This document shows, one piece after another, positions 1 to 53,562 of a DNA stretch of 64,000 nucleotides (the stretch's first letter is position 1; each line of letters begins with the position of its first letter). This DNA comes from Veillonella seminalis (GTDB taxonomy: Bacteria; Bacillota; Negativicutes; Veillonellales; Veillonellaceae): positions 62,001 to 126,000 of the forward strand of contig NZ_RQUZ01000005.1 in the NCBI RefSeq assembly GCF_003992065.1. Direction: 5' to 3'. The position numbers and the translations under genes are program-made. The notes under the pieces are model-generated. The model did no database searches. It was given only the letters and a program-made list of their open reading frames with translations, and was not told the DNA's origin.

Positions 1-2
1 CG

Positions 3-686
3 GAAGATGAGATCGAAAAACGCGTTAAAGAGTTATTGGAGTTTGTAAACTTACCGGACCGAGCCAATGCGTATCCGACACAATTATCGGGCGGTCAGAA
101 GCAACGTGTCGGGATTGCCCGTGCGCTGGCTACCAATCCGTCAATCTTACTTTGCGATGAAGCAACCAGTGCGTTGGATCCGGAAACAATGGAAGCCATC
201 TTGAAGTTGTTAAAACGAATCAACAAAGAATTTAACATTACCATTTTATTGGTAACGCACGAAATAAACGTAATTCAGAAAATTTGTAATCGGGTAGCCG
301 TCATGGAACATGGTTGTGTTGTTGAAACGGGCACGGTGCTCGATGTATTCAGTCATCAGACCCAAAGTATGACCAAACGTTTTGTGCAGACGGTTATTCC
401 GGAACGTATTCCGGATAATATCGTAGCTCAGCTAAAAGCCGAAACAAGACCATATGAGTTGGTGAAGTTACGCTTTTTAGGTGACATGGTGACTAAAAAT
501 GTTATTTACGAAGTGAATCATAAATTTAATGTTGAAACCAATATCGTTTTTGCATCGGTTAATCAGTTACAGGATTCTGCATTGGGGATTTTTATTTTAC
601 AGATAACCGGGGCTCCCGAAGAAATTGGGGCAACTAAAAAATATATGTGTGACGCAGGACTTGAATGTGAGGTGATTACATTATGA
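3..686 (+). CDS. metN: Methionine ABC transporter ATP-binding protein MetN (5' partial)
   Basis: ATPase subunit of the D/L-methionine importer, working on the cytoplasmic face of MetI. The reading frame is open to the left edge, so the N terminus with the Walker A motif lies outside the window. Visible in order are the ABC signature LSGGQKQR, Walker B ending CDEATSALDP, and the switch histidine in LLVTHE. A C-terminal NIL domain of about 75 residues follows; in this family it binds methionine and inhibits transport allosterically. The TTG at 36 is internal, not the start. The stop overlaps the metI start by 4 bases, so the two are translationally coupled. Confidence 0.95.
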   Translation, partial: EDEIEKRVKELLEFVNLPDRANAYPTQLSGGQKQRVGIARALATNPSILLCDEATSALDPETMEAILKLLKRINKEFNITILLVTHEINVIQKICNRVAVMEHGCVVETGTVLDVFSHQTQSMTKRFVQTVIPERIPDNIVAQLKAETRPYELVKLRFLGDMVTKNVIYEVNHKFNVETNIVFASVNQLQDSALGIFILQITGAPEEIGATKKYMCDAGLECEVITL

Positions 687-47941: not shown

Positions 47942-49132
47942 ATGGCTGAAAAACATGTATTTTTCACATCTGAATCCGTAACGGAAGGTCATCCTGATAA
48001 AATTGCTGACCAAATTTCAGACGCCGTGCTTGATGCGATTATTGCACAAGATCCTACGGCGCATGTTGCGTGTGAAACACTTGTAACCACAGGTCAAGTT
48101 CATGTAGTGGGTGAAATTTCCACTAACTGTTATGTAGATATTAATCATATTGTTCGTGAAACTATTCGTGAAATCGGGTACACTCGTGCCAAATACGGTT
48201 TTGACTGCGATACTTGCGGTGTTAATGTAGCTATCGACGAACAATCCGCCGATATTGCTATGGGCGTTGACGACGCATTGGAAACTCGTGAAGGTGGCGC
48301 TGATAAATTCGATAAAATCGGTGCCGGTGACCAAGGTATGATGTTCGGTTACGCAACTAACGAAACTGAAGAATTCATGCCTATGCCAATTGCTTTGGCT
48401 CATCGTTTGTCTCGCCAATTAACTAAAGTTCGTAAAGACGGCACTTTACCTTACCTTCGTCCGGACGGTAAAACTCAGGTTACTGTTGAATATGTTGACG
48501 GCGTGCCTAAACGTATTGAAACAATCGTTATCTCCACACAACACGGTCCTGAAGTATCCCGTAAACAAATCGAAGCAGACCTTAAAGAATTGGTTATTAA
48601 ACCGGTATTGCCTGAAGGTTTTGTTGATGAAAACACTAAATTCTTCATCAACCCGACCGGTCGTTTCGTAATCGGCGGTCCTCAAGGTGACGCAGGTTTA
48701 ACAGGTCGTAAGATCATCGTTGATACTTATGGCGGTATGGCTCGTCATGGGGGCGGTGCATTCTCCGGTAAGGATCCTACAAAAGTTGACCGCAGTGCGG
48801 CTTATGCAGCTCGTTATGTAGCTAAAAATATTGTAGCAGCCGGTCTTGCCGATAAATGTGAAATTCAGATTGCTTATGCTATCGGCGTAGCTAAACCTGT
48901 TTCCATCATGGTAGAAACTTTCGGTACCGGTAAAATCTCCGAACAGCAAATCGGCGAACTCGTTAAGAAACATTTCGACCTTCGTCCGGCCGGCATTATC
49001 GAAATGCTTGACCTTCTCCGCCCAATCTATCATCAGACAGCGGCTTACGGTCATTTCGGTCGTACCGATGTTGATTTGCCTTGGGAACAAACTGACAAAG
49101 CTGATGTTCTTCGCAAAGAAGCCGGTTTATAA
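47942..49132 (+). CDS. metK: S-adenosylmethionine synthetase MetK
   Basis: 396 residues, cytoplasmic. Makes SAM from methionine and ATP. Motifs: [19 protein letters not shown] near residue 16, [12 protein letters not shown] near 127, and [16 protein letters not shown] near 270. Its level is set by the SAM-I riboswitch just upstream. The methionine importer at the start of the window supplies the substrate. Codons are more biased toward C-ending forms than in neighbours, as expected for a highly expressed gene. Confidence 0.97.
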
Positions 49133-49343: not shown

Positions 49344-49374
49344 TTGACCGTTATAGCAATATTTGTAGTATAAT
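49344..49374 (+). promoter_or_regulatory. Candidate promoter of the malolactic enzyme gene
   Basis: TTGACC at 49344-49349 and a perfect TATAAT at 49369-49374. The 19-bp spacer is long. Transcription would start near 49381. The rest of the 49264-49514 gap holds an inverted repeat and a long untranslated leader but no ORF. Confidence 0.55.
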
Positions 49375-49417: not shown

Positions 49418-49514
49418 TATAAAATTTGTTTATCATTTATCGGCAGTCATAACACACTGATAGCGTATGTAATTTTTTATATGTGAATTTTGGTAATTCT
49501 AAAGGAGGATTTCT

Positions 49515-51188
49515 ATGAAAAATGCATATGATATTATCAATGACCCTTTTTTGAATAAAGGGACGGCATTCAGTGCTGAAGAACGAGAACTTTTTAAATT
49601 GAAAGGTATGATTCCCGATAAGATTCAAACCATTGAAGAACAAGCACAGCAAGCCTATAAAGCTATGTCCGTTAAAACGACAGATGTAGATAAGCGTCAC
49701 TTCCTTATGAAATTATTCAGCCATAATCGTACCTTGTTCTACTATTTGTTCAGCCAACATATTGAAGAGTTTATGCCAATTGTGTATGACCCATGTATTG
49801 CCGATACGATTCGCAATTACAGCGAATACTATACGACACCACAAAACTCTGCCTTCTTATCTATTGATAATCCTGAAAACATAGAAGATGCTTTGAAGAA
49901 TGCCGCCTATGGTCGTGATATTAATTTAATCGTTGTTACCGATGCGGAAGCTATTTTGGGTATCGGTGACTAGGGCCTTAACGGCGTTGCCATTTCCATC
50001 GGTAAATTGATGGTGTATACAGCCGCGGCCGGGCTGGATCCTCAGCGTGTATTGCCGGTAGTGCTCGATGTGGGCACCAATCGTCAGGAATTATTGGACG
50101 ATCCTTTATATTTAGGCAATAAACATAAACGTGTTGCCGGTGAAGAATACTATAAATTTGTAGATCAGTTTGTACAAACGGTTGAAAAATTATTCCCTAA
50201 TTTATACCTTCATTTTGAAGACTTCGGTCGTGATAATGCCGCCAATATTTTAAATGCGTATAAAGACAAATACCCTGTTTTCAATGACGATATTGAAGGT
50301 ACCGGTATTATTTCCTTAGCCGGTATCTTGGGTGGTTTAAAAATTTCCGGGGAAAAATTAAAAGACCAAGTGTATATGTGCTTTGGTGCCGGTACAGCCG
50401 GTTGCGGTATTGCTAATCGCGTATTGCAAGAATATGTGGATCAAGGTGTACCTCGTGAAGAAGCTATCAAAAAATTCTACTTGGTGGATAAGCAGGGCCT
50501 TTTATTCGATGATATGGATGATTTAACACCGGAACAAAAACCGTTTGCCCGTAAACGCAGCGAATTGGAAACTAATGAGTATGTTAAAGCTTCCTTAGGT
50601 GGTGATACGAAGAAGTTAACTACTCTTGAAGAATGTGTTAAAGCGATTCATCCGACTATTTTAGTGGGTACGTCTACTAAGAGCGGTGCATTTAGTGAAG
50701 TTGTTGTCAAAGAAATGGCAGCACATACGGCTCGTCCTATTATATTCCCATTAAGTAATCCGACAGAACTTGCGGAAGCAACGGCAGAACAGCTTATTAC
50801 TTGGACTGATGGGAAAGCTTTGGTAGCGACGGGAATTCCGGCTCAACCGGTTACTTATAAGGGAGTTACCTATGACATCGGTCAGGCTAATAACGCTTTG
50901 ATTTATCCGGGGCTTGGACTTGGTGACATTGCAGCCGGTGCTAAGCTATTGACCGACCAAATGATTTCGAAAGCGGCTCATTCGTTAGGTGGGATTATTG
51001 ATGTTGCAAAACCGGGTGCGGCCACAATTCCACCGGTTTCCAAATTAACCGAATTTTCTGAAACAATTGCTATTGCCGTGGCTAATGAAGCTGTGGATCA
51101 GAAGTTGGCGAAAATTTCTAAAGAAGAAGTACCTAGTGCAGTGAAATCCATTAAATGGGTTCCTGAGTATAAAGATTTAACTAAATAA
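49515..51188 (+). pseudogene. Malolactic enzyme / NAD-malic enzyme, interrupted by in-frame TAG
   Basis: 558 codons in one frame apart from a TAG at 49971-49973. The 152 codons before it and the remainder to 51188 belong to one protein. The N-terminal part (DPFLNKGTAF, FYYLFSQHIEEFMP, VVTDAEAILGIGD) and the rest ([57 protein letters not shown]) match the malolactic enzyme family along its length of about 540-560 residues. The stop falls in GIGD*G, where the family has W or Q, so one base change explains it. UAG is an ordinary stop elsewhere here. The second part has ATG 50007 but no ribosome binding site. A pseudogene, a read error or readthrough all remain possible. Confidence 0.85.
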
Positions 51189-51218
51189 GTTGATTTTGCA
51201 GTAAGGAATGATGATTAA

Positions 51219-51271
51219 ATTCCCTCCGCGAGCTTTTAGCGTATGTCATAGTTCGAGGAGGGAATATTTTT
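51219..51271 (+). terminator. Terminator after the malolactic enzyme gene
   Basis: ATTCCCTCC at 51219-51227 pairs with GGAGGGAAT at 51257-51265, with a further CGA/TCG inside a large loop, followed by a T run at 51267-51272. Confidence 0.8.
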
Positions 51272-51381: not shown

Positions 51382-53562
51382 ATGCGTGTAGCAGAGGTTA
51401 TTATTAATCGTCCGACTAAAAAAATGAATAGTCCGTTCAGCTATGCCGTACCGGAACATTTGGGAACAATTGAACCGGGCACACGTGTGGCTGTCCCTTT
51501 GGGGCGTACTCGTGAAGAAGGCATTTTGGTAGGCTATCGTGAACTTGAAGAAGTACCGACATATCAACTTAAACCGATACAGGCGGTTCTCGATAAGAAA
51601 CCGTGGTTTACACCGGAAATGCTGGCGACGGCTAAGCGCCTCAGTGAATATTATTTGTGCTCTTTGTCGGAAGCACTCAGTTTATTTACTATTGATAAAA
51701 AACAGTTAAAGAGTTATGAACGACCTAAAGAACAATGGCTGTCGGCGGAACCGTGGTTTAATCCGGAACATATTCCGCCAAAACGCAAACGCCAGCGTGA
51801 ATTGGGATTTTATTTACAAGAATTGGGAACCGCTTCAGTTCACAGTTTGCAAAAAGACGGTTTTGCCTTACCGGTAATCAAACAGGTTATGACCTATGAA
51901 GGTATAACGGTGGAAGAACGCTACAGCAAGACCAAGACAAAGTTTGATGCTTATCAGGTTAAAGATTTGCCTTTGACCGAAGAACAGACAATCTGTTATG
52001 AACCAATTCGGGAAGCTGTTAATAATAACGTGGCGCAAACATTTTTGCTTCATGGGGTTACGGGTAGCGGTAAGACACAAGTCTATATGAAGGTAGCCAA
52101 AGATTGTTTGGCCAAAGATCGTATAACCATTGTGTTGGTTCCTGAAATTATGCTGACCAATCAGATTGTTATGCGTTTCGTGGAAGCATTCGGTGATGAA
52201 GTGGTGGTATTTCACAGTAAACTTACCATCAGTGAACGGTATAATAATTGGGAACGCTTGCGACGTAAGGACAGCCATATTATAATCGGTGCCCGTTCTG
52301 CTGTATTTGCACCGACCGATGACATCGGGTTAATCATTGTCGACGAAGAACATGATACTTCCTATAAACAGGAAGATATGGTGCGTTACCATGCCCGTAA
52401 GGTGGCGCAGTGGCGCTCTCATGCCAATCATTGTCCGCTGATTTTAGGTTCGGCAACGCCATCGATTGAATCGTACTACCTGGCAAAACAAGGGCAATAT
52501 ACCTTGTTGGAGTTAAAACATCGAATTTTTCATCAACCTTTGCCCAAGGTACAGATCATCGACATGAAAGAAGAGATGATATACGGCAATTACTCGGTGT
52601 TTTCAGGCGCTATGATCCATTTGATTCGGCAGACTTTGGCTAATAAAGAGCAAATGATTATGCTCCTCAATCGGCGCGGTTTCAGTACCTTTGTTATGTG
52701 TCGTGATTGTGGCGAGCCTGTTAAATGCCCGCATTGTGATATTGCCATGGTGTATCATCGGGAAGGTGAAGCACTTCGTTGTCATTATTGTGAGCATCAT
52801 GAACCGGTGCCTAAGGTGTGTCCTAAATGCGGCAGTCTTAAGATTAAATTTTTCGGTTCTGGCACGCAGAAGGTAGAAGAAGAATTACAACGTAACTTTC
52901 CGAAGGCACGTATTGCCCGGCTTGATCAAGATATGACGGCCAAAAAAGGCAATGGTGAACAGATTCTTAATGATTTCGGTGCCGGCCGTTATGATATCTT
53001 ACTGGGTACTCAAATGGTGGCTAAGGGTCATGATTTTAAAGGGGTTACGGCTGTCGGTGTTTTAACCGCTGATTCGGTACTTAATATTCCTTTATACAGT
53101 GCGTCGGAACGCACTTTCGATTTATTGACGCAGGTGGCGGGGCGAGCCGGTCGCAGCACCGGTAAAGGTCAGGTAGTAATTCAGACCTATAATCCGTTAC
53201 ATTATGCTATAATAAAGAGTAAGGCTCATGATTATGTGGGCTTTTACGAAGAAGAAATAAAAGCTCGTGAGCTGTTGAGGTATCCACCCCTTGGCTCAAT
53301 GATGCATTTTCGCATTCAACATAAGGATGAGGCAAAGGCCATGGCCATTGCCGAGCGCATTGTTGAAGCACTTGAACCGTATGCTGTACCGGGGGAACTT
53401 GATGTAATGGGACCTTATCAAGAAGGGATTAAGAAGGTTCGCGATTTATATCGAGTAGCGATTATGGTACGGGGGGATAATTTAGAGGCAATTAAACAGT
53501 TTATATATACATCGTGGATCTTTACACAAGAGGGACTGCAGATTGATGTGGATCCCGTATAA
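51382..53562 (+). CDS. priA: Primosomal replication-restart helicase PriA
   Basis: 726 residues. Restarts stalled forks by loading the replicative helicase. N-terminal DNA-binding domain; Walker A GVTGSGKTQVYM near residue 225; DEEH near 318; and a zinc-binding cluster with eight cysteines, CRDCGEPVKCPHC and CHYC...CPKC (about 440-485), inside the helicase domain. The C-terminal helicase half has GTQMVAKGHDF. It starts the priA-def-fmt-rsmB-rlmN run. Confidence 0.96.
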   Translation: MRVAEVIINRPTKKMNSPFSYAVPEHLGTIEPGTRVAVPLGRTREEGILVGYRELEEVPTYQLKPIQAVLDKKPWFTPEMLATAKRLSEYYLCSLSEALSLFTIDKKQLKSYERPKEQWLSAEPWFNPEHIPPKRKRQRELGFYLQELGTASVHSLQKDGFALPVIKQVMTYEGITVEERYSKTKTKFDAYQVKDLPLTEEQTICYEPIREAVNNNVAQTFLLHGVTGSGKTQVYMKVAKDCLAKDRITIVLVPEIMLTNQIVMRFVEAFGDEVVVFHSKLTISERYNNWERLRRKDSHIIIGARSAVFAPTDDIGLIIVDEEHDTSYKQEDMVRYHARKVAQWRSHANHCPLILGSATPSIESYYLAKQGQYTLLELKHRIFHQPLPKVQIIDMKEEMIYGNYSVFSGAMIHLIRQTLANKEQMIMLLNRRGFSTFVMCRDCGEPVKCPHCDIAMVYHREGEALRCHYCEHHEPVPKVCPKCGSLKIKFFGSGTQKVEEELQRNFPKARIARLDQDMTAKKGNGEQILNDFGAGRYDILLGTQMVAKGHDFKGVTAVGVLTADSVLNIPLYSASERTFDLLTQVAGRAGRSTGKGQVVIQTYNPLHYAIIKSKAHDYVGFYEEEIKARELLRYPPLGSMMHFRIQHKDEAKAMAIAERIVEALEPYAVPGELDVMGPYQEGIKKVRDLYRVAIMVRGDNLEAIKQFIYTSWIFTQEGLQIDVDPV

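Follow-up and report, generated by a model that had tools for sequence, protein, structure and literature searches.

A probable very recent nonsense allele of an optional malolactic enzyme gene in a Veillonella genome

The malolactic enzyme gene of a genome of the Veillonella ratti group is interrupted by a single in-frame TAG, and with a probability of about 0.8 this gene, an optional one, has very recently become a nonsense allele or pseudogene. The coordinates of the gene, its signals and its neighbours are collected in Table 1 and refer to the window, the whole 64,000-nucleotide stretch of DNA that was analysed. According to this reading, part of this Veillonella group has an optional malolactic gene flanked by metK and priA, and in this genome the gene would very recently have undergone one G-to-A transition that turned the conserved Trp153 codon into UAG. 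Translation would then halt within the malic enzyme N-terminal domain, 152 residues into the protein, and no active enzyme would result.

Table 1. Positions of the interrupted malolactic enzyme gene, its parts, its signals and its neighbours in the window.
Feature	Position	Strand	Basis
metK, left neighbour; adjoins priA in relatives without the malolactic gene	47942..49132	+	
Promoter-like region, TTGACC and a conserved TATAAT stretch; GTATAATTAAA also in both sisters	49344..49372	+	consensus match only
Ribosome-binding site AGGAGG, conserved in both sisters	49504..49509	+	sequence, sister comparison
Malolactic enzyme gene, mleS-like, with one TAG inside; probable nonsense pseudogene or allele	49515..51188	+	frame, NF041582 and PF00390/PF03949 matches
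N-terminal fragment (152 aa) with the beginning of the malic N-domain, PF00390 positions 3-83	49515..49970	+	domain match
In-frame TAG, codon 153; Trp codon in close relatives	49971..49973	+	comparison with homologues
Downstream part, 404 codons; remainder of PF00390 and entire PF03949	49974..51185	+	domain match
Terminator-like 3' hairpin ATTCCCTCC...GGAGGGAAT with a T run after it; conserved in the sisters	51217..51261	+	sequence, sister comparison
priA, right neighbour	51382..53562	+	

The frame has 558 codons with the terminal TAA counted, and the TAG is its sole internal stop. Read through, it scores 926 bits against NF041582, the malolactic enzyme model with a curated cut-off of 850, and the halves alone score 235 and 672 bits. 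The halves are collinear on the profile (positions 1-147 and 149-536), and no frameshift was found in the frame from their matches or from that of the read-through frame. Hence, the initial annotation was exact in describing a complete malolactic frame with a single TAG and no other lesion. It mistook the GIGD*G sequence at the stop for a nucleotide-binding motif: the stop is at profile position 84 of 182 in PF00390, the malic enzyme N-terminal domain, and the NAD-binding domain PF03949 begins about 107 residues after the TAG. Both domains are complete, in order, and collinear across the TAG. MleS (NF041582), a group of NAD-dependent malic enzymes, has the same domains in the same order as the read-through frame. 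Unlike MleS, the Veillonella gene is not one uninterrupted frame but is broken at codon 153, and it has metK on one side and priA on the other, without an adjacent malate permease or regulator. The gene is a broken member of NF041582, not a working one. As judged from the family, the intact enzyme is predicted to use bound NAD and Mn in converting malate to lactate. The gene is single-copy, with no second malolactic gene in its own genome, and no start codon preceded by a ribosome-binding site occurs within 40 codons after the TAG. The product would be truncated.

We then inspected the codon at position 153 in homologues. It is a Trp codon (TGG) in about 40 distinct homologues read. The sisters V. 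ratti and Veillonella sp. KGMB01456 carry an intact, syntenic malolactic gene with TGG at this codon, sharing 86% DNA identity and about 95% protein identity with the interrupted gene. TGG is also found in homologues from Megasphaera (67-68% identity), lactic acid bacteria (about 58-65%), oral Veillonella, Hoylesella, and Streptomyces. Gln (CAA) occurs only in two distant marine MAGs among the homologues fetched, and solved structures show Trp (6urf) or Gln (6ags, E. coli-type MaeA) at the homologous position. A search of 300 Negativicutes genomes gave 33 strong matches, only one of which, this gene, has an internal stop. TGG is present in all 27 Negativicutes genes from this search that were read base by base, five of which, as judged by identical identities, are also among the fetched homologues. 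All the relatives checked carry a sense codon here. The stop is therefore derived and private, as in a nonsense pseudogene. At the sequence level, the TAG is one G-to-A transition away from the sisters' TGG. Separately, the malolactic gene of Paucilactobacillus nenjiangensis (L019:5560-7173) has two stops in the aligned frame at other positions, which may reflect an independent loss or a frameshifted end.

The malolactic gene is absent from four of the seven genomes of the genus. In three of these four (G001, G002, and G006), the metK-side and priA-side matches are just 75-90 bases apart at the same place. Within the rest of the family, only 2 of 21 genomes have the gene. Hence, the malolactic gene is optional and dispensable in part of this Veillonella group, and its loss is cheap. 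Around the interrupted gene, the signals remain conserved. Promoter-like matches near the gene showed no excess over shuffles in the scan, so it is conservation that carries the promoter call; the 3' hairpin has no entry in the signal scan of the region. Transcription is probably still intact, with the stop as the sole lesion. The initial annotation stated that the loss would remove malate-to-lactate conversion. This is a fair inference as far as the direct conversion is concerned, which would be lost, but a weaker malic-enzyme-domain match is present in every Veillonellaceae genome searched, including this one (G000 C1:240318-241139), so that the ability to use malate at all need not disappear. 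In the part of the literature naming Veillonella together with malolactic enzyme that was covered, nothing concerned this gene.

Selection on the gene was assessed by comparison with the two sisters. The dN/dS against them is 0.030-0.033, similar on the two flanks of the stop (0.038 and 0.030), and the sisters themselves differ with a dN/dS of 0.043. The low values leave no relaxed phase visible on this branch, and this is probably because the lesion is too recent to show one. With half of the dS of 0.88 assigned to this branch and about 1280 non-synonymous sites, a rough clock gives P=0.03 for a neutral tail of 2% of the branch and P=0.003 for 3%; the clock is valid only if the stop abolished selection, and alone it leaves a tolerated stop possible. 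Taken together, the optional gene, its conserved signals, the dN/dS of about 0.03, and the private TAG argue for a very recent nonsense mutation, and the very recent decay considered in the initial annotation is favoured. Young nonsense pseudogenes and polymorphisms of bacteria likewise have a single private stop, an otherwise intact frame, and a low dN/dS, and no notable difference separates them from the Veillonella gene (PMC7918605). Bacterial genes with in-frame stops and dN/dS below 1 have been reported, and such stops tend not to persist beyond the scale of a polymorphism within populations (Belinky et al., 2021, PMC7918605). The TAG may be a strain polymorphism.

The same genes with in-frame stops and dN/dS below 1 would also fit functional readthrough, in which near-cognate decoding of UAG yields enough full-length enzyme and the gene stays under selection. 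The lack of decay around the stop fits equally well a stop made tolerable by low-level readthrough, and as the site accepts Trp or Gln, the residues commonly inserted at UAG could give an active enzyme. We nevertheless regard functional readthrough as quite unlikely. The TAG is private, and both release factors, RF1 (554 bits; cut-off 423) and RF2, are intact. UAG terminates 247 of the 1463 ORFs of 200 codons or more, essential genes among these. No tRNA with a CUA anticodon was found among the 42 tRNA genes predicted by ARAGORN in the whole draft, from which four expected tRNAs are missing. These are tRNA-Trp, tRNA-Ile(GAU), tRNA-Ala(UGC), and tRNA-Arg(ACG), absent from the readable draft, in which contigs C22-C26 are all N. 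The 100 bases from the TAG onward fold no better than shuffles (z 0.50), so no stable structure was found after the stop. Programmed readthrough and reassignment share one feature with this gene, a single in-frame UAG flanked by coding sequence, and differ from it in that here the stop is unconserved, RF1 is present, and neither a dedicated tRNA nor a downstream structure was found. There is no positive evidence for programmed readthrough or recoding. The initial annotation had offered stop readthrough as an alternative that a TAG conserved in many related genomes would support; with the stop in 1 of the 33 class matches, this alternative is unsupported. Code reassignment of UAG, in which RF1 is lost and UAG no longer terminates, was rejected on the intact RF1 and the general use of UAG as a stop. 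In the window, UAG is the normal stop of secA, prfB, trkH, and prkC, as the initial annotation rightly held against reassignment.

The genome was also surveyed for other nonsense lesions, on the basis of coding statistics and family matches in this genome alone. A scan for stops flanked by coding sequence without a nearby restart returned 17 places, several of which are gene pairs or noise. Clear isolated stops occur in three genes, encoding a MetN-type ABC ATPase, a nitroreductase, and a metallo-hydrolase, where relatives have Gln, Trp, and Trp, respectively. The MetN-type gene (genome C5:61601-62683; window 1-683) has one TAG at the conserved Gln of the Q-loop; the TAG lies at C5:61928, 73 bases ahead of the window start, the ORF at 36-686 is the downstream part, and relatives at 93% identity are intact. 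The nitroreductase-family gene (L107:17989-18654, minus strand) and the gene for a hydrolase of metallo-beta-lactamase fold (L093:12106-12900, minus strand) each have a single TAG. At the trp locus (L091:531-1421, plus strand), the N-terminal part of trpE contains an in-frame TGA and is fused in-frame to a piece of trpD; the decayed operon suggests that tryptophan synthesis has been lost. A fragment of the Ser/Thr transporter gene stp (L178:3690-4421, minus strand) has an in-frame TAG, lacks the C-terminal part, and lies upstream of a frame resembling pyruvate:ferredoxin oxidoreductase. Two trimeric autotransporter-like (YadA-domain) genes contain an in-frame TAG (L128:11819) and an in-frame TAA (L188:7873), which could be misassembled repeats or real lesions. 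The places from the scan also include adhesin-like genes and an IS1182 transposase. The fresh nonsense lesions and the decayed trp locus are what ordinary gene loss would be expected to leave, and the genome is shedding genes by this ordinary route.

These lesions bear on two other explanations. The first is an assembly or base-call error, the gene being intact in the organism. The genome is a 2.25-Mb draft in 26 contigs, and the stop is the only lesion of the gene, one transition from the codon of the relatives, both of which fit an error. However, the draft is 99.86% complete with 0.03% contamination, and drafts of such quality rarely contain stray substitutions in the consensus. At least three more genes that relatives have intact carry isolated stops of the same kind, and many errors would be needed to explain these, while ordinary decay predicts them. 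We therefore consider an error improbable, and the mutation is likely to be real in the organism.

The second is genome-wide amber suppression, in which a mutated tRNA would read UAG as Gln or Trp and TAG would accumulate at Trp and Gln codons. The isolated TAGs do fall at Trp codons (malolactic enzyme, nitroreductase, metallo-hydrolase) or at a Gln codon (MetN Q-loop), and the tRNA-Trp gene is missing from the assembly. The UAG usage and the intact RF1 described above oppose suppression, and interruptions by TAA and TGA occur too. TAG accounts for about 6 of 10 plausible lesions, compared with about 44% predicted from G:C-to-A:T transitions (14783 of 33589 target codons); an excess of TAG among the lesions was considered and found unconvincing. 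Only the series of Trp codons turned into TAG hints at anything unusual, and it lies within chance. The loci examined in G001, a relative with a better assembly, included one tRNA-Trp gene; if this gene is single here too, it must read UGG, and a single and essential tRNA-Trp cannot become a suppressor. Suppression across the genome is thus highly improbable. We give hardly any credence to its specific form, an amber suppressor in a tRNA gene absent from the draft, by which full-length protein would still be made from several genes, including this one, that have UAG in place of a Trp or Gln codon.

A very recent nonsense mutation in an optional gene remains our preferred reading of the malolactic stop, which gives no evidence of unusual decoding. 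For annotation, a pathway call made from the two gene fragments would wrongly grant the strain malolactic fermentation. For the biology of the group, the gene would show how the loss of an optional fermentation gene begins in a Veillonella, documented against two sister genomes.
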